Source of the DNA: an uncultured Sphingorhabdus sp.
Lineage (GTDB): Bacteria; Pseudomonadota; Alphaproteobacteria; Sphingomonadales; Sphingomonadaceae
NCBI GenBank assembly: GCA_947492905.1
Contig: CANLOL010000001.1
Span: forward strand, 124,001-188,000
Reading direction: 5' to 3'
Length of the DNA: 64,000 nt
This document shows, in pieces, positions 28,522 through 41,674 of this stretch. A model generated the notes under the pieces. The model was not told the origin of the DNA, did not search any database, and worked only from the letters and a program-made list of their open reading frames with translations. Each line of letters begins with the position of its first letter. Within the stretch, counting starts at the first letter, position 1. A program made the position numbers and the translations under genes.

Positions 28522-28992
28522 TTACGAGCGACTCAAGCCAAATTGCCGTAAATTATCCAAAATAGCCACAATAGATTCGCGCGCTTGTGAATCAATAATG
28601 TCTCCCCCCGCGGGCTCTGTGTGAGTCGGCGCTGTAAACCAAGACATATCTTTATATATCATGAGGCATCCAGATTGTGTATTGTGTATACGCATATTCT
28701 CAACAGGCTCTAAATATCGAAACCCATTGGCTGTTGATATTACTATTTGGTTGGCTCTTTGCGACCATGCACCGCTCGGCGCATCGCTAATCAGCCATGC
28801 GCTACTTTCACCCTCTATAGTTTGCTCTATGGCTTCTGGTTCAATATCTTCTGGACGATCAACAATTGATACTATCGAAAGGTTGAGCAAATTATCGATC
28901 AGCAATAAGGCTTCATTATGGGTATATTCTTTTTGAGCCTGTCCAACCGCCAAGAGCGGCAATTTATGGCGTGAAGTTCTAAGAGTCATCAT
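28522..28992 (-). CDS. DUF2793 protein, last gene of the GTA cluster
   Basis: The 156-residue protein contains the DUF2793 signature near the N-terminus (HKLPLLAVGQAQKEYTHNEA) and SAWLISDAPSGAWSQRANQI, followed by a C-terminal helix. The family occurs at the ends of alphaproteobacterial GTA and phage tail clusters, and its role is not established. A fibre or receptor-binding role has been proposed by context only. AAAGG lies before a double ATG (28992/28989). The gene follows the baseplate gene by 21 bases, so it belongs to the same transcript. Confidence 0.8.
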   Translation of the reverse strand: MMTLRTSRHKLPLLAVGQAQKEYTHNEALLLIDNLLNLSIVSIVDRPEDIEPEAIEQTIEGESSAWLISDAPSGAWSQRANQIVISTANGFRYLEPVENMRIHNTQSGCLMIYKDMSWFTAPTHTEPAGGDIIDSQARESIVAILDNLRQFGLSRS

Positions 28993-29013: not shown

Positions 29014-31245
29014 TTATTTTATATTATTTTGGAAAATAAGCGGCTGTGATCGCGCAAAAGTACCAATCTGGACCACAGAAATAGTGATGTTGATTATTCC
29101 CAAATTCACCCATTGCTCTAATTGCTCCTGCGATAGGTGATAATCCGATCTAGATAGGGTTTCATCAATCAGCAATTCAGAGCCGCTGGCGCGTTCATCA
29201 GATGAAATTTGCAACGCATATTGTTCACTATCTTCATGCAAAGCTATATCAACGCCATCGCTCCATGGCGCTGGTACGCGCGATCGCCTGATCCACTTTA
29301 TAGATTTACTGCCATCCTGAGCATCAATGATTGTCCCATGAACGGGAGGCAATGGCGTCAATGATCGGCCAATAGAAGATAAATTTGCGGTTTGCGGGGT
29401 TTCATCACCCAATCCCATAGCTTCGAGGCTGAGGCTCTGTCCCACATTATATTCTGCGGACTCAAGAAATTTCAATTGCTGTGTATCGAGCAAGACAAAT
29501 CTCTCATCCGCTTGATGGCTTGAAATAAAAGCCTCCGTGCCGCCAACACCTCTGCATAATCCCTCTAATGTATAGCTATCATCATCGTTCAAACGCGCGC
29601 TGCTAAAGGCAATAATCTCATCACCAATCATCGCAAAATTAGGGGCTTCAAAAGGGCTGTCATTGCCAACATCCGAGAGCGGTAGGCGCATAGCATCATT
29701 GAGCAACCGAATTTGCGGACGATTAGCATAATCGATAATATTCGGGTCAGCAGGCCGCATAGCTTCGGTAATCTGGCCGATATTCGAAACTCTATTCACG
29801 CTATCAATCGGCGTAACATTGCTGCCTTCACGATTGAAAATAGTGGCACTGCGCCATCCAGCTTCAGTGCCTGCGCTTGCTATGGCAATATTAGGCTGCT
29901 GAGCATTGCCAATGGTAAATGCTGGCAAATCGAGCAGATGGAAAATAGTTTCCCCCGCTTGTTCATCGCGCGAAATTATCGAACGGCCAGACGTAATATT
30001 GGATGCTCTCTGCGAAAGTTGATTCCGAGGAATTGCTCTAAGCTCTAAAGTGATGAGACCCAAATCTTGCTCAATTTGCGTGATTTGCCACAAATTCATA
30101 TGTCCCGCGATACTTACTATATCGCCGCTAATATGATTGGCATCATTGCGCACTACATTGATAGAGAGAGTTTGGCGCGCGAATATATCTTGATTATGTT
30201 TATGGCTCACCAACGCATTTGCATCTGCTGCATGCAAAGCTGCAGGGAAATCGATTGTCACATTTCTGCGGCCCGGCCCTGGGCGCCTGCTATTTTGCAA
30301 ACCCGCTTGATATTCACGCGATGGTTCATAATAACGAAGCGCATATTCCTTTGCCACCTCATTCAGTGGCAATACAGAAATTTGCTTATCTTCTAATCTA
30401 TTGTCATTTTGAAACGCTGCTTCTGGTGCATCAATAGCGGTAATTTCTTGGTCACTATTATGCGCAACCAATTCCAAATTCTTACCCTTAGCGCGCAATG
30501 ATAATGGCAAGGGGGATAGCAAGCTCTCAATCGCCTCTCGGCTATTACTATGCGATGCGGCAAAGCCTAATATAGAGAAATTCTGCTGCCCATTCTCACT
30601 ATTATCAATCAAGCCTTGGGTTAATATATTTGCAATAGAGATGATTTCTATTTGCCCAAAAATATTGATAATTTCAAATGTCAGCGAAGGTATTCTATTA
30701 CCAAAGTTTTCGAGCTGCATATTTTCAAAAACGGCATAGCTTATCCCTCTATGCGCGGGCGTATTGGCAATGCCCTCTGCCGATGCAATGAGCGGATCAA
30801 TAGATTGATTTTCTGTACCCGTATATAATCTAAATTGTGTTTCAGATTTGAAGTCACCTTGCGCGCCGCGCAGCAAATTACCATCAGCCCAAATACGGCC
30901 AACCGCAGCAATGGGCCGCGATGATAATGCAACGGCAAAATTTGCAGAATATGAAAAAGTGACAGTGGATGGCCTGCCCTTTCCGCCGCCCTCTCTATTG
31001 CTATCTTCCTGCAAATCGGTGGCCCATATTACGGAACCAGCGGTGCGCATATTGCCAAAAATTTGCGGTATCGCCGTTCCATAGCTCGATGTTTGTACCG
31101 AGACCTCTGCTAGCCTTGCGCCCTCTCTATCGGGGCCGCTGCCGATAATTGCTTGATCGAGTTGCGAGCCAATAAAGCTGCCAATGGCGCCCCCCAATGG
31201 GCCGCCAAAAATTGTACCTACTGTGCTTAATACCAATGTTGCCAT
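29014..31245 (-). CDS. GTA/phage baseplate protein (gp15-like), short form
   Basis: The 743-residue protein has the gp15-type N-terminus (MATLVLSTVGTIFGGPLGGA, then GSFIGSQLDQ) and the following NMRTAGSVIWATDL segment. A tail-hub domain lies in the middle (about 220-380), and the C-terminal part ends in strand-rich baseplate modules. The Rhodobacter protein is about 1300 residues and includes a TIM-barrel-like glycosidase domain. Here no room is left for it. The start lies two bases behind the peptidase stop, with GCAGGAG inside that gene. Confidence 0.88.
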   Translation of the reverse strand: MATLVLSTVGTIFGGPLGGAIGSFIGSQLDQAIIGSGPDREGARLAEVSVQTSSYGTAIPQIFGNMRTAGSVIWATDLQEDSNREGGGKGRPSTVTFSYSANFAVALSSRPIAAVGRIWADGNLLRGAQGDFKSETQFRLYTGTENQSIDPLIASAEGIANTPAHRGISYAVFENMQLENFGNRIPSLTFEIINIFGQIEIISIANILTQGLIDNSENGQQNFSILGFAASHSNSREAIESLLSPLPLSLRAKGKNLELVAHNSDQEITAIDAPEAAFQNDNRLEDKQISVLPLNEVAKEYALRYYEPSREYQAGLQNSRRPGPGRRNVTIDFPAALHAADANALVSHKHNQDIFARQTLSINVVRNDANHISGDIVSIAGHMNLWQITQIEQDLGLITLELRAIPRNQLSQRASNITSGRSIISRDEQAGETIFHLLDLPAFTIGNAQQPNIAIASAGTEAGWRSATIFNREGSNVTPIDSVNRVSNIGQITEAMRPADPNIIDYANRPQIRLLNDAMRLPLSDVGNDSPFEAPNFAMIGDEIIAFSSARLNDDDSYTLEGLCRGVGGTEAFISSHQADERFVLLDTQQLKFLESAEYNVGQSLSLEAMGLGDETPQTANLSSIGRSLTPLPPVHGTIIDAQDGSKSIKWIRRSRVPAPWSDGVDIALHEDSEQYALQISSDERASGSELLIDETLSRSDYHLSQEQLEQWVNLGIINITISVVQIGTFARSQPLIFQNNIK

Positions 31246-31667: not shown

Positions 31668-32504
31668 TTAATTGAGACCAGGGTATCGGGTGAGTAAATC
31701 ATTGCCGGGCAGATAAGGCTCGCCTCTAAAATTGACGCTATTTTGAAACCGATTGCTGCATGTCATAATGCTTTTATCGCACCCCATGATAATTTCTGCG
31801 CGCAAATTGAGCGGCTCTTCTTGATCGGATAGCATTGCAATTATGTGGGGAATATCCGTCAGAGAAAAACTATCATTATCATTGTCCAAAATGAAAGTGC
31901 TAATCCCCGTTGCTGGTCCGCTGAGCCATCTAAATTCCCCAAAAGCAAAATCCCCAATAGTGCCGGGTAAATTGCCATCAACAAATAATCTATCGCCCTC
32001 TATATGCGTTATGCGCACTTCATGGGTGAAACGTTGCTGATTTAATTTACAATGATGATCGCCAAATCTTGCTCTGCAATTTGGAGAGGTAACGGGTGCA
32101 ACTTCATGATCCAATTGCGCCGTAAGACCCAAAAATTCAGCCGTGAATGCGCCCTCTGATTGACGGATTTCGCCTAATTCTCCGCGCGCTAATGTGATTA
32201 TATCGGCATCATCCTCCATCCAATTATAGAGGAATATGTGCGTGCGCGCTCCATTCCATCGCCCGCTCTCAAGATCCTCTTCGCGCAAAGCATCATCGGT
32301 CAGAGCCCCGCTAATATCGAGACCATCAGATTGCGTCCCCAGCGATGATATAATCTTTGTCGGCACTAGACCCGGTTGCGCCGATAATCTTATGCCGCCA
32401 ATAATCTGTGATTGATCGTGTGAGGTAAACCCCAATGTCACGCCATCGCTGCGAATAATATGCCAACCATAGGCAAGGGTTTTCAAATTTTCATCCACGC
32501 TCAT
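31668..32504 (-). CDS. Baseplate hub protein, DUF2163 (GTA gp13-like)
   Basis: The 278-residue protein has the DUF2163 pattern: GWHIIRSDGVTLGFTSHDQS near the N-terminus, SPNCRARFGDHHCKL in the middle, and the C-terminal GCDKSIMTCSNRFQNSVNF. The latter carries conserved Cys that, in the GTA structure literature, bind an iron-sulfur cluster in the hub. It ends with FRGEPYLPGND. The start overlaps the gp12-like stop (ATGA, 32501-32504). Confidence 0.92.
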   Translation of the reverse strand: MSVDENLKTLAYGWHIIRSDGVTLGFTSHDQSQIIGGIRLSAQPGLVPTKIISSLGTQSDGLDISGALTDDALREEDLESGRWNGARTHIFLYNWMEDDADIITLARGELGEIRQSEGAFTAEFLGLTAQLDHEVAPVTSPNCRARFGDHHCKLNQQRFTHEVRITHIEGDRLFVDGNLPGTIGDFAFGEFRWLSGPATGISTFILDNDNDSFSLTDIPHIIAMLSDQEEPLNLRAEIIMGCDKSIMTCSNRFQNSVNFRGEPYLPGNDLLTRYPGLN

Positions 32505-34873
32505 AATGCTTCTTTCACCTCTATCAATGCGATAGAATTGCTATCGAAAGCGCCATAGGTTGCACCCGCCAAATCCAGCGTATCATTGGTAAAACGCACG
32601 GGCACATCAAAATGAAATCCTGCGGTAATGATACTATTTTCTGCTGGAGCATTCTCAAATATAATCATGGCATCATCACCCAATGACCATCCATTAACGA
32701 CCTCGCCATCAATCGCGATTATGACAGTCTCTGCAATAGGACGCGTAATTACACGCCGCTGAGGTTCATCAATCTCATCTCCATAATTTTTCATGCCATA
32801 ATTTTTCATGAGGGCAAAACGGGTCTGCAGCCCATCACCAATGCCGATTTGCTGATCGAACGGGCTAATCTCTCCGCTATCAGAAGAGCAATTATCATAA
32901 GGATCTTTGAAACGAAATCCGACCGCGCTGCCGCGCCTTGCTCTAAAGAAATTGATCAGCACTGCGACATCCTCTTCAGAGCGCAAGGCCGGACCAACAT
33001 CATAACGCATACGCGCATCCGCCCAATTGCTATTGCGAAATTCATGGCCCGATGTCGATGTCACAATATGGGTTGAAAATTCAGGAGAGACAATCGCATT
33101 TTCGCTCAATGCTAGGGGTAATCTCTCATCATAAAATGCATCCATCATGTCTTCCTCTTCGCTGTTGCGCGCGTCCATATTCTGTAAATTATAATAAGTG
33201 AAACCATCGCGCGATACTTGGGGCAGCGCCCAAATGAATATATGCTCAATGTCTCGTTTTTTTGCGCTAACCGCGGCAAAATCAATCTCATGCCATTGGG
33301 CTTTTTCCTCTGGCAGCAATACAAAGCCGCTGAAATAATGTTGCTGCTCAATCGGATAGGATAAGCGCTGCGTCATTAATTCAGTGGCGCGTAATGTCGC
33401 ACCATGATTGCCCGCAATCACCCAATCATAATCTTCCAATTGCAATATATCGAATGCAGGGGCGCTCCAGCCATTGGGAACATTAGCCCGCAAAGCATCG
33501 GGCGCGCGTTCATCCAATACGGTTGGCAAATATACCAATAATGATATTTCGCTTTTCGTTCCTAAATTGGCTGCATATTCCTTTGTTGCATTGGATATAA
33601 GCGCGGTCGATGCCGCTAATAATTCACCAGCACGATCCAGCATCGCCTGTTCATCGGCACTTTTAGCGCCAAATATCGTGTCCATCTCTTGCAGCATATC
33701 GCCAAATAAAGCGCGCGCACGATCATCATAAAGACAAATACGCCCATCCAAAAATATCCACCACCAAGGCTCGCCCACCTGAAAGCGCATGGGCAGCCCG
33801 CCCGATACCAATATATCGGCAAAGGCCAATGCGACATGCCGCAGATAATTTATCGCTCCATCATGCGCGGGCGATACCAATGTTGAGGGCGGCGTATAAT
33901 AGGTCAAGGCAGGATTACCGTCTAAATCCCGCTGCTTCCAATCATTCCAGCAATGGGCATTAAAAATCTCATAGGATAAGGAAAAAATGGCTTCATATCC
34001 TGCTGCTTTAACGAGCTGCACAAAATTTTCATGCCATGCGATACATGCATTATTGAGCGCACCGCCATTAAGGCTAACATAATGATCGCCGCCCACAGGT
34101 TCGAGCCTGAAATAATGGCTCATTCCAACATAGTGATTGATCGTTCCGCGATAGCCCAATGCGCGAATTTGCCGCAGCACCCGCGCGGGGGTAAGATTAT
34201 AGGCATCGTCATAGCCGGTGGCCATTTGCATATCATGTTCGGGCATCATTATATCGCCCGTATCCAGCATTGTGCCTGCGCCATCGCACCGGATCTGTAA
34301 CAGTTCTAAACTCGCCTCTTGCGCGGGATGTATTAGCGTATCTTGATTATCAAAGCTTGGCGGCACTAAGGATATGAACATGCGATCAATATCCCCAGCA
34401 TAGACAGGGTCTGCCTCTGATGGGAGCAAAAACCCGCCACTAAGATCGCTAAAGTTCAAAGTAATTTGCGCATCGGTAGGGCCACCAGATGCATAATTCC
34501 AGAGCCGCACAAACCAGCTGCGCGGATTGCCATTTTGATCGCGTCCCTCGATTGTGAGCGTCGGCCCATTAATCTCATCGAGCGGTTTAATGCCGACAGA
34601 TCTCCAATGAAATGATAGCGTTAAAGACCGATAATCTCGATTGGTTTCATAAGCGAGCAGAGGATGATCCCAGCGATCTTCGCTCTCCCATATCAATCCT
34701 GCCAGAGCATTTTGATGATAAAAAACCGCTTCTACACGCAGGGATTCAGGGCCAGTATTGACAACAGATGCCATCATTGGGCGCGCAAAATCTACGGTCC
34801 AAAATCGCGGATCAAATCTTTGCACAGGGTTTGATATATGCCCATCGCGCTGCTGCGCTAACCAATACGCCAT
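32501..34873 (-). CDS. Distal tail protein (DUF2460, gp12-like) with large N-terminal extension
   Basis: The 790-residue protein is far longer than the roughly 210-residue Rhodobacter gp12. Residues 577-790 are a complete DUF2460 domain (STHIVTSTSGHEFRNSNWAD, GFRFKDPYDN, FDQQIGIGDGLQTRF). The first 575 residues contain a beta-rich start (1-190). A region with glycosidase-like aromatic and acidic clusters follows (about 215-480: ALGYRGTINHYVGMSHYF, SYEIFNAHCWNDW, QVGEPWWWIF), reminiscent of a TIM barrel. A five-residue tandem duplication (KNYGM twice) lies near residue 690. Start and stop overlap both neighbours. It probably forms the tail tip and may bind or trim surface glycans. Confidence 0.85.
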   Translation of the reverse strand: MAYWLAQQRDGHISNPVQRFDPRFWTVDFARPMMASVVNTGPESLRVEAVFYHQNALAGLIWESEDRWDHPLLAYETNRDYRSLTLSFHWRSVGIKPLDEINGPTLTIEGRDQNGNPRSWFVRLWNYASGGPTDAQITLNFSDLSGGFLLPSEADPVYAGDIDRMFISLVPPSFDNQDTLIHPAQEASLELLQIRCDGAGTMLDTGDIMMPEHDMQMATGYDDAYNLTPARVLRQIRALGYRGTINHYVGMSHYFRLEPVGGDHYVSLNGGALNNACIAWHENFVQLVKAAGYEAIFSLSYEIFNAHCWNDWKQRDLDGNPALTYYTPPSTLVSPAHDGAINYLRHVALAFADILVSGGLPMRFQVGEPWWWIFLDGRICLYDDRARALFGDMLQEMDTIFGAKSADEQAMLDRAGELLAASTALISNATKEYAANLGTKSEISLLVYLPTVLDERAPDALRANVPNGWSAPAFDILQLEDYDWVIAGNHGATLRATELMTQRLSYPIEQQHYFSGFVLLPEEKAQWHEIDFAAVSAKKRDIEHIFIWALPQVSRDGFTYYNLQNMDARNSEEEDMMDAFYDERLPLALSENAIVSPEFSTHIVTSTSGHEFRNSNWADARMRYDVGPALRSEEDVAVLINFFRARRGSAVGFRFKDPYDNCSSDSGEISPFDQQIGIGDGLQTRFALMKNYGMKNYGDEIDEPQRRVITRPIAETVIIAIDGEVVNGWSLGDDAMIIFENAPAENSIITAGFHFDVPVRFTNDTLDLAGATYGAFDSNSIALIEVKEAL
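32781..32810. repeat. 15-bp tandem duplication inside the gp12-like gene
   Basis: CCATAATTTTTCATG occurs twice head to tail, adding five residues (KNYGM) in frame to the DUF2460 domain. Because the copies are identical, it looks recent. Confidence 0.85.
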
Positions 34874-36964: not shown

Positions 36965-37201
36965 TTAGCCCAAGAATCGCTCAATAAAGCTTTGCGGACT
37001 GCGCAATTTTTCATTGGTCATCATGCGATTAAACAATCGGCGCGCAGCTATGCGCACGCCATTTTCATCTTGTGAAATTGCACCATCGGGCGCAGCCTCT
37101 TGCAAAATTTCAGCCAATTGCATTTGGGTGTTTTTGATGCGCCTTTGCCCAGCCTTATTGGCCCTTGCGATCAATGATCGGTCTAAATCACCAATATTCA
37201 T
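36965..37201 (-). CDS. Small GTA-cluster protein in the gp7 position, unrecognised
   Basis: 78 residues from the ATG at 37201. That start overlaps the adaptor-gene stop as ATGA, favouring it over one at 37231 that would overlap by 34 bases. The protein is basic and mostly helical (RANKAGQRRIKNTQMQLAEI). It does not show the roughly 110-residue head-tail stopper pattern expected at this place. A shortened HK97-gp10-like protein is possible. Its position between adaptor and tail terminator makes a connector role likely. Confidence 0.6.
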   Translation of the reverse strand: MNIGDLDRSLIARANKAGQRRIKNTQMQLAEILQEAAPDGAISQDENGVRIAARRLFNRMMTNEKLRSPQSFIERFLG

Positions 37202-37740
37202 AATAATCGCATTCGGCGATAGGGTTGCCAAAGTGCGGCTATAGCAACCGGCGGCTGCGCGCTATCGTCCAAATCTCTATTGCTGTAAATATGCGCCGCA
37301 AGACGGATGATACCGCTGCGCAATTGATCGGGCAGCATATCCCAATTTTTGCTAAGGCCAGCGCTATAGCTAACTCTAATCCGTGGATGGTTTTGTCCAT
37401 TATGCACTAAAACACGCCCTTTTGATTGGGCATTAATATCGATCGCATAATTTTGTATTGGCAAGGCTATGGCATCACCCAACGCCGTTAAACCCATGAC
37501 GGATTCAATCATTACGACTGGCGATTTTGATAAATATTGCCAGTCTTTTGAAACATGCATTTCCTCAATAGTCTTGCTCAACAAAGGCGATGCACCAATG
37601 AAATTTGCACATATATCCAATGATGCACGCAGCAAGCTATAAAGTTTTGCATCTTCATGGGATAAGGTGATGCGCAAATAATCTTTTAATTCATTCAGCG
37701 CATTAACGGGCAGCTCAGGCGGCGTTGATTCTATCATCAT
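37198..37740 (-). CDS. Head-tail adaptor (GTA gp6-like)
   Basis: The 180-residue protein shows the GTA gp6/HK97 gp6 connector pattern: NALNELKDYLRITLSHEDAK, LLRASLDICANFIG, and a C-terminal RLAAHIYSNRDLDDSAQPPV, AIAALWQPYRRMRLL. These form the ring that binds under the portal. It starts within the stop of the fibre-tail adaptor gene (ATGA) and ends within the start of the next gene (ATGA), so translation is coupled. Confidence 0.9.
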   Translation of the reverse strand: MMIESTPPELPVNALNELKDYLRITLSHEDAKLYSLLRASLDICANFIGASPLLSKTIEEMHVSKDWQYLSKSPVVMIESVMGLTALGDAIALPIQNYAIDINAQSKGRVLVHNGQNHPRIRVSYSAGLSKNWDMLPDQLRSGIIRLAAHIYSNRDLDDSAQPPVAIAALWQPYRRMRLL

Positions 37741-38018
37741 CGTTTCTCCACACGAAAGCTGATACTGCGCTCATCACGCTCGCCATTTTCCAAAACGACT
37801 TGATTGCGCACATCATAAACGCGCCCAGATACGCCGCCTTCTATAGTGACGGTTGTTATCTTTCCGTCATGGCTGGATTCAGCGGCAAAAATTGCATTTT
37901 CATGTTGCGGTGTTACCGTCCATATTGAGGATTGAATTATATCATTGCCAAGATGGCCTGCGCCCCAATCGATCTTATAATCAATTCGCGCAGATGGGTC
38001 TTTTACAAAGACACGCAT
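37737..38018 (-). CDS. Phage fibre-tail adaptor-like protein
   Basis: The 93-residue protein begins MRVFVKDPSARIDYKIDW and contains a beta-rich core with TIEGGVSGRVYDVRNQV and ERDERSISF. This is the pattern of small phage proteins that I know as fibre-tail adaptors (K-DP-A-LDY-DW at the N-terminus, then GG-G-Y-V). AGGGAG precedes the start. It sits next to the tail-fibre gene, which supports a role in attaching the fibre. It is absent from the Rhodobacter order at this place. Confidence 0.7.
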   Translation of the reverse strand: MRVFVKDPSARIDYKIDWGAGHLGNDIIQSSIWTVTPQHENAIFAAESSHDGKITTVTIEGGVSGRVYDVRNQVVLENGERDERSISFRVEKR

Positions 38019-38058
38019 GTCTTGCTCCCTTTTGTTAAAATGTTAGAGATTGCGGCAA

Positions 38059-38220
38059 TTAACCGCGTGTCGGTTTTATACTATTTTGCTCAGCATATTG
38101 GGGTTGAACGCGCCCTTCTTGATGCACGGATATTGATAGGCTGCTATCATTATCAAGCGGCCTGATAGTGCTCCGAAAAGGTGCGGCTATTGCCTGTGAG
38201 GCGATACTAAAACCAAGCAT
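38059..38220 (-). CDS. Small protein, 53 residues, coupled to the fibre gene
   Basis: The ATG overlaps the fibre-gene stop as TAATG, so translation can be coupled. It fills the otherwise empty 200-base gap before the fibre-tail adaptor. The peptide starts MLGFSIASQAIAAPFRST, which could be a short hydrophobic anchor or signal, and continues with a polar PLDNDSSLSISVHQEGRV part. No family is recognised. A fibre chaperone or accessory role is inferred from position only. The case for a real gene rests on the overlap and compact packing. Confidence 0.5.
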   Translation of the reverse strand: MLGFSIASQAIAAPFRSTIRPLDNDSSLSISVHQEGRVQPQYAEQNSIKPTRG

Positions 38221-39866
38221 TAGATACGCTCAATCAGAGTATTTATTTGCTCTTTTAGGGCATTTATTTCGCCTTGCTGGCGCTTGGTTTCGCGCAAGCT
38301 CCACGCCGATGCCAATGCAAATAATTGGTCATATTTTACGCCATAGCTATCGCCAGCCTCTTGGATTAAATTGCGCTCCATAATGGGCTCACCATCATCA
38401 TCTAACATCTGATGCCCATCATCGTCTAATTTGAGAGCGTCCTCATATTGCGCATCCCATTTATGATAATTGAGCAAACCCATAGCGGCTATTTGATCAT
38501 CATCCATACCCACAGATTTTGCGCCGCGTTCTATATCTTGCGCCAATACACCGATTTGGATTTTGCCATCACTATCCTTTCCGCCTTCACCCTTCATAGT
38601 GAAATTTTTCCATTGAATGATGGCGCCATACCAATCGAGCATTTGATCGGTAATGAGCGCTATATTTTCTTTGTGCCGTTCGTCCGATGTGACAATCGGA
38701 TTATTAGCCAAATATAGATTAGAAATTCTCTTATTGGCGGCTCCTATATCGCTTCTATTATCCAACATTGGTTCTATACCGTGTCGGAATTTAGACGCCT
38801 CTTGCGGATGCAATACCACGCTTAATCCGCCTAAAAAACCATTGTTGGTTTGGGTTCTAACATTGAAAGAACCGTTATTTTGATCGCCTTGGTAATTTAA
38901 TCCCGCATTGATGTAAAAACCCAACATATTGGTATAATTTGCGCCCCATCTCAATGAAGGGCCCGAATCTGGTCTTGATGCAGCATATGCTAGCTGGATT
39001 GTACCCGATGGTATTTCAATCGTAGAAGGCGATATTATATTACCACCATCTGCACGGCGCGCGGGAAAAGCATCGCCCGCAATCGTGACAAAATTCTGTC
39101 CCGAAGCTCCAACAGCAACGTTTAGCCTATCATTGGTCCTTAGAAAATTTTGCGCCGTTAGATTATTAATTCCAAGGTCAGCAAAGCTATGCTCATGATT
39201 TGCATCGGCATAATCGCCCGCCTCTTGTTTGCTGGCTAATATATCGCTTAAGCCCGCAATAGTCTCTGCATCATGGCTATGATCGGCGCTGGCATAATCG
39301 CCTGCTTCTTGTTTGCTGGCTAATATATCGCTCAAGCCTGCAATAGATTCTGCATCATGACTATGATCGGCGCTGGCATAATCGCCCGCCTCTTGTTTGC
39401 TGGTCAATATATCGCTTAAGCCTGCAATAGTCTCTGCATCATGGCTATGATTGGCGCTCGCATAATCGCCTGCCTCTTGCTTGCTCGCTAATGCTTGGTC
39501 CAATCCATCTATGCTTGCCATATCATGCTGATGCGCAATGACCTCATTGCTCTGCTGGTTAAACCAATCAGCGGATATGGTCAGATTTATATTTTTACGG
39601 CCCGATGAAAAATCCACCAACTCATCATTGTGCGATGAAATTATGGGAGCACGTGCCAACAAAGATTGCGCATCAAGATGCCCTATACCCACTTCCCATT
39701 CATTCGCTTCGTCATCATGGCTTATCGCGTAATAAAATGTACGGCCCGCTGGCACGCTATTCGCAAAACTGCGATAGCCCGCCACAGGCCCATCGAGCTG
39801 CATATTATCAGTGCCGCTAGTGCGCGATGTTTCTCTGACAAGGTCTGCAAAAAATAATATGGTCAT
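38220..39866 (-). CDS. Tail fibre with HxH repeats and S74 intramolecular chaperone
   Basis: 548 residues. The N-terminal domain (about 1-105) matches alphaproteobacterial phage tail-fibre starts (DRV-type FADLVRETS, then AGYRSFANSVPAGRTFYYAI). Residues 112-223 hold four 28-residue repeats, each starting with HxHD and ending SKQEAGDYASA. A fifth HEH follows. After a beta-rich shaft, residues 394-548 form a Peptidase_S74 domain: SDERHKENI supplies the Ser394/Lys399 dyad for self-cleavage before Ser394, and the end is a coiled coil. Such fibres trimerise and bind cell-surface glycans. It lies between capsid and adaptor genes, behind a strong terminator. Confidence 0.88.
   Translation of the reverse strand: MTILFFADLVRETSRTSGTDNMQLDGPVAGYRSFANSVPAGRTFYYAISHDDEANEWEVGIGHLDAQSLLARAPIISSHNDELVDFSSGRKNINLTISADWFNQQSNEVIAHQHDMASIDGLDQALASKQEAGDYASANHSHDAETIAGLSDILTSKQEAGDYASADHSHDAESIAGLSDILASKQEAGDYASADHSHDAETIAGLSDILASKQEAGDYADANHEHSFADLGINNLTAQNFLRTNDRLNVAVGASGQNFVTIAGDAFPARRADGGNIISPSTIEIPSGTIQLAYAASRPDSGPSLRWGANYTNMLGFYINAGLNYQGDQNNGSFNVRTQTNNGFLGGLSVVLHPQEASKFRHGIEPMLDNRSDIGAANKRISNLYLANNPIVTSDERHKENIALITDQMLDWYGAIIQWKNFTMKGEGGKDSDGKIQIGVLAQDIERGAKSVGMDDDQIAAMGLLNYHKWDAQYEDALKLDDDGHQMLDDDGEPIMERNLIQEAGDSYGVKYDQLFALASAWSLRETKRQQGEINALKEQINTLIERI
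39198..39533 (-). repeat. Four tandem 84-bp repeats in the fibre gene
   Basis: Four units of exactly 84 bp encode 28-residue repeats (H112, H140, H168 and H196 as first residues). The inner three are nearly identical at protein level; the outermost N-terminal one has diverged. Unit number could change by recombination without frame loss. Confidence 0.9.
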
Positions 39867-39879
39867 ATCTGCCTCTTAT

Positions 39880-39918
39880 AAAAAAACCTGTGCCAGCAGG
39901 GGGAGAGCCGGCACAGGT
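39880..39918 (-). terminator. Strong intrinsic terminator directly behind the capsid gene
   Basis: On the minus strand ACCTGTGCC (39918-39910) and GGCACAGGT (39894-39886) pair perfectly over nine bases with a 15-base loop. A run of seven T's (39886-39880) follows. It lies about 50 bases behind the capsid stop and before the fibre gene, inside what is otherwise one long operon. Confidence 0.88.
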
Positions 39919-39971: not shown

Positions 39972-41189
39972 TTAGCTGGCTGAGAATTTCAGCAATTTAA
40001 TCGCTTCGCTGTTCATCACTTGTCCGCCAATGCGCTTGGTCGCATAAAAATGCACAAAGGGCTTATTGGTGAATGGATCGCGCAAGATTTGCGTCGCTTT
40101 GCGCTCTGCAATCAAATAACCTGCTCTGAAATTACCAAATGCAATGGAGAGGCTATCGGCGGTGACGTCGGGCATATCTTCGGCTTCTACCACAGGATAA
40201 CCCAACAATGTATCGGGCTGACCAGAGGCCAAGGACGGTTGCCATAAAAATGCACCATCGCTCGTTTTGAATTTGCGGATATGCGCCAATGTGCTGCTAT
40301 TCATAACAAATGCCGCACCCTGACGATAGGAAGCGCGCAGGCTATGCACCAGATCAACGATTTGATCTTCTGGATTATCGCTACCAAAATCACCATCGCT
40401 GCCCGTGGCAATATATTGCAAAGTACCAAAAGCGCGATTGGCATCATCCGCATCGCTTGTCGCTTCGGTTAAGAAACCGCGCGGTTGATTGACGCCGCTG
40501 CCCAGCACAAAGGCGCTGCCCTCGGCTCTTGCAAATTCACGCGCAATTTCATCGGCCAGCCAATTTTGCACATCGAATGCCGCATCATCGAGCATCGCTT
40601 GAGACGCTGCTGGATTAGCATATAGCTCGCCCGTTGGCGGCGCAATTTCATTGAAATTAGGCGTATCGGTCTCTGGACGGCCAGCAACCTCGCTCACCCA
40701 ACCCGATGGCGTGCCACCATTGGTCACCAATTTACGATAACCTGCGCTGCCCGTTTGCACCATAGTCGCGATGCTGCGAATGGGCGAAATATCGGTCAAA
40801 GTTTTGCCAATCATAGCATCAATTTGCTGCGGAACAGCATAGCCGCCATCCGATGGACTTGCGCCCGATAGGCTCTTAATCTCTTGATCAATACCGCGCC
40901 GCAAATATTGGTCCACAAAGGCAACCGCTTTTGGATCACGCATCGATTTTTCACCGCTTTCTAATGCGGGACGCGCCGCAGCAGATGAAACTTTTGCCAT
41001 TTGCCCTTGCAAAGTTTTGACATCAGATTTTGTACCATCAACATCACTGCGCAAGGCCTTTATTTCGGTCTTTTGCACCTCTTGTTCATCGGCAATAACC
41101 GCCATATCTTCGGCGGCTATCACAGCATCAAAAGAAGATTCCATAGGGTCAGCTTTTGTTTCTAATTCTATATTCAGGGGGGTATCCAT
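39972..41189 (-). CDS. HK97-type major capsid protein (GTA gp5-like)
   Basis: About 405 residues from the ATG at 41189 (MDTPLNIELETK). A GTG at 41267, overlapping the protease stop as GTGA, would add 26 residues. The N-terminal part (about 25-75) is a coiled coil rich in DEQEVQKTEIKALRSDVDG, the scaffold segment that the prohead protease removes. The mature part begins near the RPALESGEKSMRD region and has the HK97 fold motifs GGYAVPQQID, VLGSGVNQPRGFLT, AAFVMNSSTLAHIRK and LLGYPVVEAEDMP. It builds the particle shell. Confidence 0.93.
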   Translation of the reverse strand: MDTPLNIELETKADPMESSFDAVIAAEDMAVIADEQEVQKTEIKALRSDVDGTKSDVKTLQGQMAKVSSAAARPALESGEKSMRDPKAVAFVDQYLRRGIDQEIKSLSGASPSDGGYAVPQQIDAMIGKTLTDISPIRSIATMVQTGSAGYRKLVTNGGTPSGWVSEVAGRPETDTPNFNEIAPPTGELYANPAASQAMLDDAAFDVQNWLADEIAREFARAEGSAFVLGSGVNQPRGFLTEATSDADDANRAFGTLQYIATGSDGDFGSDNPEDQIVDLVHSLRASYRQGAAFVMNSSTLAHIRKFKTSDGAFLWQPSLASGQPDTLLGYPVVEAEDMPDVTADSLSIAFGNFRAGYLIAERKATQILRDPFTNKPFVHFYATKRIGGQVMNSEAIKLLKFSAS

Positions 41190-41263
41190 ATATAATTTAC
41201 CTTTCATTTTCGTCTTAATCTTAGGAGCTACTTCTCCTATATTTGAGGATGATTTGGCGATCT

Positions 41264-41674
41264 TCACTCTACCAAATGCACCCTCGCCAGCGGCTGCATA
41301 GGAAATGTAACCAAACTGATTTCTGCGACATCAAGCGCCAATAATTCACGCGGTTTTGTGCCTTGAGAATTTTGCACACGATAACCAAAAGACAGGCCTT
41401 CTATCGCCCTTTGTTTGAGTAATTTTATCGCCTCATGCGCGCGCTTATTATCATCCAATGAAGCAATGATACGCAGGCCGCGCTTATCAACCTTTGCATA
41501 ATCAATCGTGCCAATTTTCTGCATAGGATCATGTTGCCAAAGCAGCGGTAAATTTGGTTTAATCGCCTCAAATGCGCGTGGCCGAATTATATCACCGCCC
41601 TTATCTAATCTGTTGAAAATGGCCGCATAGCCAGCGATACGAAACAGATGGTTTCGGCTCTTTTTCATCATCAT
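41264..41674 (-). CDS. HK97-type prohead protease (GTA gp4-like)
   Basis: 136 residues from the ATG at 41674, which overlaps the preceding stop (ATGA); the frame is open further up, but without the family pattern. Motifs: FRIAGYAAIFNRLDKGGDII near the start, LLWQHDPMQKIG with His48, and EGLSFGYRV with Ser95. These are the His and Ser of U35 prohead proteases. It trims capsid scaffold segments during head maturation. Confidence 0.9.
   Translation of the reverse strand: MMMKKSRNHLFRIAGYAAIFNRLDKGGDIIRPRAFEAIKPNLPLLWQHDPMQKIGTIDYAKVDKRGLRIIASLDDNKRAHEAIKLLKQRAIEGLSFGYRVQNSQGTKPRELLALDVAEISLVTFPMQPLARVHLVE

Follow-up and report, generated by a model that had tools for sequence, protein, structure and literature searches.

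The closest described relative of the element considered here is RcGTA, the gene transfer agent (GTA) of Rhodobacter capsulatus, whose head-tail cluster comprises the genes g1-g15. As far as the accessible text of the papers cited here goes, RcGTA-like clusters have been found in many Sphingomonadales, and the conserved 'prophage' of this order described by Viswanathan et al. 2017 is an RcGTA-like element (PMC6821227); the GTA cluster of Sphingomonas AAP5 is organised similarly to that of R. capsulatus (PMC8067484); DUF2793 is the RcGTA tail fibre (PMC10883770); and RcGTA has been modelled to bind the capsule by its head fibres and to employ its tail fibres afterwards (PMC7296036). The window, that is, the whole 64,000-nucleotide stretch analysed here (uncultured Sphingorhabdus sp., contig CANLOL010000001.1, positions 124,001 to 188,000), carries on its minus strand a cluster of this kind, from terS (45091) to a DUF2793 gene (28522), in which gene content and order from TerL to the megatron are as in RcGTA, and which shares with it the HK97 capsid, the adaptor, the tail tube, the tail assembly chaperone, the hub and the DUF2793 fibre gene. 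The two clusters differ between capsid and adaptor: the corresponding RcGTA genes, Rcc01687 and Rcc01688, are consecutively numbered (PMC7296036), whereas in the window a fibre cassette lies between them, inside the cluster, unlike the receptor-binding proteins of RcGTA, which come from ectopic loci (PMC13420450). The module is real and constrained, and the cluster is a variant of the known kind, an RcGTA-like GTA with an internal adhesin slot. The domains, catalytic residues, predicted Gp77 fold and placement of the module, the co-divergence of fibre anchor and Gp77 with the capsid, and the alternative cassettes found at the same place make it likely that the GTA bears a side fibre that is trimeric, cleaves itself and is attached through Gp77, and that this fibre occupies a slot with changing receptor-binding tips.

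The initial annotation had placed a fibre, a small open reading frame (ORF) of 53 amino acids (aa) and a fibre-tail adaptor-like gene between capsid and adaptor, and both coordinates and neighbours hold. The left neighbour of the slot is the HK97-type major capsid protein (g5, 39972..41267; PF05065 E 5.9e-91, TIGR01554 E 5.3e-111), and the right neighbour is the head-tail adaptor (g6, 37198..37740; TIGR02215 E 3.8e-17, phrog_442 E 2.2e-17), whose start overlaps the stop of the Gp77 gene (37737..38018); the 548-aa fibre gene (38220..39866) and the 53-aa ORF (38059..38220), whose start overlaps the fibre stop (TAATG), complete the module, and all these genes are on the minus strand. The fibre was divided by eye into an anchor (residues 1-~105), a repeat shaft (~106-240), a variable tip (~241-393) and an S74 chaperone (394-548). 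The chaperone end claimed earlier is borne out by PF13884, matched over residues 394-446 (E 2.5e-8; 34.5 bits, the cut-off being 22), and by the motif SDERHK, within which Ser394 falls exactly and which contains Lys399, these being the serine and lysine of the S74 catalytic motif. Across 19 aligned fibres, D395 and K399 never vary and at least 90% have S394, with Cys in its place in L178. The predicted fold points in the same direction, since at E < 0.001 Foldseek retrieves only S74 chaperones with the fibre model (3gw6, E 1.6e-9; 3gud, E 2.9e-6; 4uw8). The first residue of the free chaperone 3gud aligns with Ser394, and in a profile search position 339 of the profile is the last one covered by seven chains from mature fibres and endosialidases, and 340 the first one covered by 3gud, which is what cleavage before Ser394 would predict; by analogy with the ends of these solved relatives, autocleavage before Ser394 and trimer formation may be expected in the GTA fibre. 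S74 fibres such as the endosialidase, the L-shaped fibre of phage T5 and the neck appendage protein resemble it in C-terminal chaperone sequence, fold and Ser/Lys motif, but the matches are confined to this C-terminal part, the anchor and the shaft match none of them, and the matched structures are phage proteins. The shaft contains an 84-bp (28-aa) tandem repeat in 3.4 copies (39207..39492, minus strand), and the fibre of L033, the nearest relative, has 84 aa fewer, equal to three 28-aa units, with the gap falling in the shaft, so that shaft length seems to change by whole repeats. Against the same relative, fibre (dN/dS 0.17) and Gp77 (0.08) are under purifying selection, the value for the capsid being 0.09.

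The adaptor-like gene of the module, proposed earlier, is recognisable both by family and by predicted fold. Its 93-aa product belongs to PF23148 (E 4.4e-23) and matches PDB entry 8jou in sequence (E 0.00024), and an AlphaFold model built from 39 sequences (predicted local distance difference test, pLDDT, 93) is a seven-strand beta sandwich for which the sole Foldseek match under 0.001 is 8jou_B (E 2.9e-6, TM 0.82/0.86), the entry being 'Fiber I and fiber-tail-adaptor of phage GP4'. Although this podophage thus resembles the window in the predicted fold and sequence of the adaptor, no sequence or fold match was found between the GP4 fibre and the GTA fibre, and GP4 is short-tailed, whereas the window cluster encodes a tail tube. 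In the mechanism favoured here, the three genes would constitute an extra receptor-binding fibre module built into the sphingomonad GTA: the fibre would homotrimerise, assisted by the S74 chaperone at its C-terminus, and the chaperone would then cut itself off before Ser394 by means of Ser394 and Lys399; the first ~105 residues would hold the mature fibre on the particle via Gp77, an Ig-like adaptor like that of podophage GP4; the distal fibre would contact the recipient cell surface and would differ between species by divergence and exchange; and anchor and Gp77 would be inherited with the GTA core. Binding of Gp77 to fibre and particle is suggested by co-occurrence and co-divergence. The receptor-binding cassette with a self-cleaving trimeric fibre that was first read from this locus stands as regards family, catalytic residues and fold, whereas cleavage, trimerisation and incorporation into the particle, and likewise a receptor and an effect on recipient choice, would be expected of such a protein.

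The module would act as an additional adhesin beside the canonical DUF2793 fibre, because the gene for the latter is also present at the cluster end (28522..28992, minus strand; PF10983 E 7.2e-13). Replacement of the RcGTA tail fibre by the module was considered and rejected, since DUF2793 occurs in this genome and, across the order, in 221 of 296 genomes, many of which lack Gp77. In the window the DUF2793 gene sits inside the cluster, directly after g15, and encodes 156 aa, against 371 aa for the RcGTA fibre.

Capsid homologues occur in 198 of the 296 sampled genomes of the order and Gp77 in 81. A class-wide sample of 289 genomes, counted whether GTA-bearing or not, gave Gp77 matches in 6, of which 4 exceed the cut-off; the six are the window's own, G523 and four others with hits in open frames of 174-1486 aa. 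In G523, which is outside the order, Gp77 lies directly before a GTA-like adaptor (L230) and g12 is RcGTA-sized (209 aa), and the module may extend beyond Sphingomonadales, to judge from gene order. Within the order, 79 stretches were fetched around Gp77, in addition to G523 and leaving out eight secondary or weak hits; capsid, Gp77 and adaptor follow in that order in 70, another 6 show Gp77 ahead of the adaptor but no capsid match within the stretch, and Gp77 stands directly before the adaptor gene in 76, the remaining ones being L193, which ends in Gp77, and the atypical L158 and L182. This position bears on the site of attachment, which would be the neck, by portal, adaptor or capsid, as the gene position suggests. 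The alternative, that the fibre is placed at the baseplate or a head vertex and that Gp77 is merely encoded beside the adaptor, is the less probable one and still deserves serious attention, since position on the virion is not fixed by phage gene order, RcGTA has head spikes and tail-tip fibres (PMC7296036), and several actinophage relatives of Gp77 are annotated as, or lie beside, minor tail proteins; it is opposed by the regular placement of Gp77 directly before the adaptor gene and by its solved relative, which is the fibre-tail adaptor of a short-tailed phage.

The content of the slot was compared in 143 non-redundant loci, which remain after the removal of 4 duplicates and comprise the window, 76 named loci (the 80 nearest capsids among the matches listed, minus 4 in which no adaptor was in view) and 66 loci chosen for carrying Gp77; the set is partly chosen for Gp77 and not random, and its counts are not frequencies. 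A fibre-like gene together with Gp77 fills the slot in 72 of these loci, from several families of the order, the fibre being of the anchor type in 41; an anchor-type fibre alone (L064, cut by the contig end) and another long ORF alone (L096) are found once each, and 63 loci have no module. S74 is present in 20 of 42 anchor-type loci, the slot genes range from 225 to 1570 aa, and among them that of L183 has a carbohydrate-esterase domain and that of L163 a weak NosD-like (beta-helix-like) match below the cut-off. This gene-order comparison among sphingomonad GTAs indicates that the module is not common to all alphaproteobacterial GTAs, and the earlier suggestion of a trait characteristic of this GTA lineage agrees with cassettes widespread at the slot in Sphingomonadales GTAs and with anchor parts that track the capsid. 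The word 'inserted', under which the cassette had first been described, is misleading in view of the 72 filled slots, loss in the module-free clades being at least as likely as insertion. In a capsid tree of 142 rows, which leaves out L216 (a 76-aa capsid piece) and counts L096 as module-free, presence or absence of the module requires 8 changes, and most rows without the module fall into two large groups, one of 44 rows (Erythrobacteraceae, Novosphingobium and kin) and one of 13 Parasphingorhabdus-type rows, six single rows being placed elsewhere; deeper module-free lineages (G013, G020, G026, G031, G015) lie outside this tree, so that either gain or loss may have occurred at the base. No description of the capsid-adaptor slot was found in the literature, which is weak evidence, as the sources were accessible in part and subscription papers were mostly outside the coverage. 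In L188, L195, L198 and other loci of family f5, a capsid, a long fibre gene (500-1570 aa) and Gp77 are followed by the adaptor and tail genes, and no g12, g13 or g15 match is present in these stretches; by their gene content, they may represent either a divergent GTA or a prophage group.

The inheritance of the anchoring parts with the core was assessed in 32 of the 41 anchor-type Gp77 loci, those whose anchor aligned well (30 for the tail tube and 31 for g8). Spearman correlations (rho) with capsid distance are 0.86 for the fibre anchor, 0.82 for Gp77, 0.79 for the adaptor, 0.78 for the tail tube and 0.72 for g8, against 0.52 for the rest of the fibre, and none of 200 permutations reached any of these values; median identities are 43% for the anchor, 43% for Gp77, 36% for the adaptor, 70% for the tail tube, 28% for g8 and 18.5% for the rest of the fibre. 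This pattern, together with the recurrence of the cassette in one and the same slot in different families of the order, makes it very unlikely that an ancestor of the window's species recently picked up the cassette from a phage, with no history in the GTA, as the initial annotation had offered as one possibility. Such an event would agree with the phage relatives of anchor and Gp77, with the variable slot content within the genus and with roseophage CRP-603, in which an anchor-type fibre, one gene and Gp77 follow in the same order as in the window; CRP-603 differs from the window cluster in being a phage that has terminase, portal and coat genes of its own, and no GTA core gene was matched in the stretch scanned. 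The phage matches are distant, the best 40 of 71 records for Gp77 being under 45% identity and all 71 under 60%, and the anchor, which is common to many sphingomonad fibres, matches six phage records at 33-42% identity, all under 45%. The Gp77 tree (62 rows, 94 columns) groups the window with Sphingomonadaceae GTAs and its 8 sampled phage rows are compatible with one clade (approximately unbiased test, p 0.675), in a topology that is weakly resolved, 6 of 59 inner branches being starred; read with this caution, the comparison with phage homologues speaks for a lineage trait and against a recent phage origin. A near phage donor was not found in phage searches, viral-contig scans or the Gp77 tree, and a search of viral contigs with Gp77 as a single protein, sensitive to close relatives only, returned none; among the sequences sampled, the nearest relatives of the cassette do not lie in phages, nor does its history appear to depart from that of the core, and recent acquisition is disfavoured. 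When viral contigs were searched with the capsid, at least 80 loci (L281-L360) were obtained, on contigs of up to 28.2 kb, with 38 of the 80 under 10 kb; their size and their capsids suggest GTA clusters filed as viral. They were not used as evidence, and arguments for phage origin drawn from viral-contig collections need care.

Several observations weigh against a side fibre docked by anchor and Gp77 and inherited with the particle. The pairing of anchor and Gp77 is not strict, as Gp77 accompanies another long ORF in 31 of the 143 loci and stands without a long ORF in 6, and it is loose also in the three phage regions scanned with profiles, where CRP-603 has both, MW202475 has the anchor and no Gp77 match, and DSL-LC06 has Gp77 and no anchor match. 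Several clades carry the GTA without the module, so that the particle can do without it. When all 78 Gp77 loci are taken together, the correlation between capsid and Gp77 drops to 0.58, against 0.71 each for adaptor and tail tube (0.48 for g8, the tail terminator-like protein), so that the coupling of Gp77 to the capsid looks looser across the whole set; and the lower correlation of the distal fibre may stem in part from saturated, gappy alignments, given its low median identity. Finally, 285 of the 548 fibre residues are under pLDDT 50: the model is confident at the anchor, poor outside 1-~105 and ~400-548, and leaves the middle without modelled structure. The N-terminal domain has no solved relative, 8jou included, by profile search or Foldseek, and because the anchor matched no solved structure, its link with Gp77 rests on co-occurrence.

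The content of the slot varies within the genus. Among 13 same-genus loci with a capsid in view, 4 carry the window's cassette (G000, G151, G589, G584), 5 an Mtd_N-type cassette (G130, G179, G600, G608, G611) and 1 a third kind (G604), and in 3 the slot is empty (G278, G583, G602); six further same-genus stretches showed no capsid. The Mtd_N-type cassette (L232, 7474-9103, minus strand; also L233, L266, L269 and L272) consists of three genes, with products of 113-126 aa, 150 aa (the Mtd_N protein) and ~202-242 aa; the 150-aa protein of G130 matches PF18454 (E 8.5e-8), those of G179, G600, G608 and G611 are 85-95% identical to it, and second Mtd_N matches in cassettes of the G130/G179 type (E 0.005-0.006) are under the cut-off. 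That the G130/G179 slot might hold a decayed copy of the window's cassette was rejected, because none of the 361 module ORFs collected resembles its content, which is of the Mtd_N type instead. Where the cassette is shared, as between the window and G151, identity is 86% for the capsid, 60% for the adaptor and 68% for Gp77, and along the fibre it is 56% in the anchor, 46% in the shaft, 23% in the tip and 34% in S74. A broader reading, put forward tentatively and at somewhat less than even confidence, is that Sphingomonadales GTAs hold a dedicated, recombination-prone receptor-binding slot with a conserved dock, either anchor plus Gp77 or of the Mtd_N type, and exchanged tips. If so, the recipient specificity of GTAs would diversify like phage host range, and these GTAs would be under current selection for whom they reach. 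The surprise lies in an apparently old dock with changing tips within a domesticated element; recipient choice bears on the persistence of a lethal trait, selection on a variable tip would argue that these GTAs are still in use, and an adhesin dock with variable tips in the cluster of many lineages of the order would make recipient specificity readable from genomes.

The assignment of the cluster to the GTAs rests on profile scans of the window proteins (Pfam, PHROGs and NCBIfam), which match the small terminase (phrog_4044), TerL, portal, S78 protease, HK97 capsid, head-tail adaptor, tail terminator-like protein, tail tube, GTA-gp10, tail assembly chaperone, DUF2460 distal tail protein, hub and a partial megatron, with the RcGTA-like synteny TerL-portal-protease-capsid-adaptor-tail-hub-megatron; g15 scores 381/800 bits against the megatron model NF048004, under the cut-off, its ends matching and its middle not. 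The view that the cluster is an ordinary decaying prophage remnant, and the fibre a leftover phage gene, gains something from damaged relatives, namely G053 (L153), with capsid and tail tube each in two pieces, and G179 (L233), with terL and g12 interrupted and each in two pieces. It is nevertheless improbable, as the structural genes of the window are open, with dN/dS against L033 of 0.04-0.25 for the named ones (0.48 for an unnamed 88-aa ORF), and fibre, capsid and Gp77 have a single match each within the genome. Moreover, the cluster occupies a host site common to some same-genus genomes: the symporter beside it shows ~92% identity to its counterparts in G589 and G151; the OmpA-like gene that flanks it on the opposite side is matched in 6 of 11 searched loci of the genus (one genome supplying two of the 11); and rpoB lies ~32-36 kb from terL in G000, G151 and G584. 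Phage replication or integration genes are not seen beside it, no integrase or repressor family being found among the seven flank genes scanned, two of which have no family at all. A horizontal swap of the whole GTA cluster within the genus, where terL identity is 52-59% in many genomes, was not supported, because in six genomes of this sort that were checked rpoB identity, too, reaches no more than 87-90%. Two metagenome-assembled genomes are odd in this respect, G589 with terL at 90% but an rpoB match of only 71%, and G598 with 98% and 70%.

The 53-aa ORF is the weak part of the module. It has no family match, and its 53-aa counterpart in L033 is 49% identical with dN/dS 0.55 over 53 codons, which suggests weak constraint at best. 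Several relatives have an ORF of 41-61 aa at this place, whose first ~15 residues are alike by eye (G/A/S alternating with I/V/L), and 10 of the 41 anchor-type loci have no ORF of at least 30 aa there; in other families the place is usually taken by a gene of roughly 120-200 aa, with no Pfam family in four tested and a weak phrog_644 match in two. Between capsid and fibre lies a terminator-like hairpin (39880..39918, minus strand; hairpin 39886-39918, seven T at 39880-39886; -23.2 kcal/mol), 13 bases ahead of the fibre ATG, which the automatic scan did not list, probably since its loop limit is 8 bases and the loop here has 9. A hairpin with a T run is present in 27 of the 41 loci with anchor fibre and Gp77 and in 31 of the 63 module-free loci, whereas none was found in L033 or L152, the nearest relatives; the terminator was rejected as a mark of the module on these grounds.

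Two further genes of the cluster, both on the minus strand, depart from RcGTA in length. The product of g12 (32501-34873) has 790 aa, against 210 aa in RcGTA, with an N-terminal non-contractile-tail-sheath domain and a TIM barrel ahead of DUF2460, whereas that of g15 (29014-31245) has 743 aa, against 1304 aa, and lacks a match to the megatron peripheral domain. Similar lengths of g12 and g15 are found in most sphingomonad loci with complete genes, and the TIM-barrel domain seems, from these domain matches, to be placed in a different protein in the sphingomonad GTA lineage.

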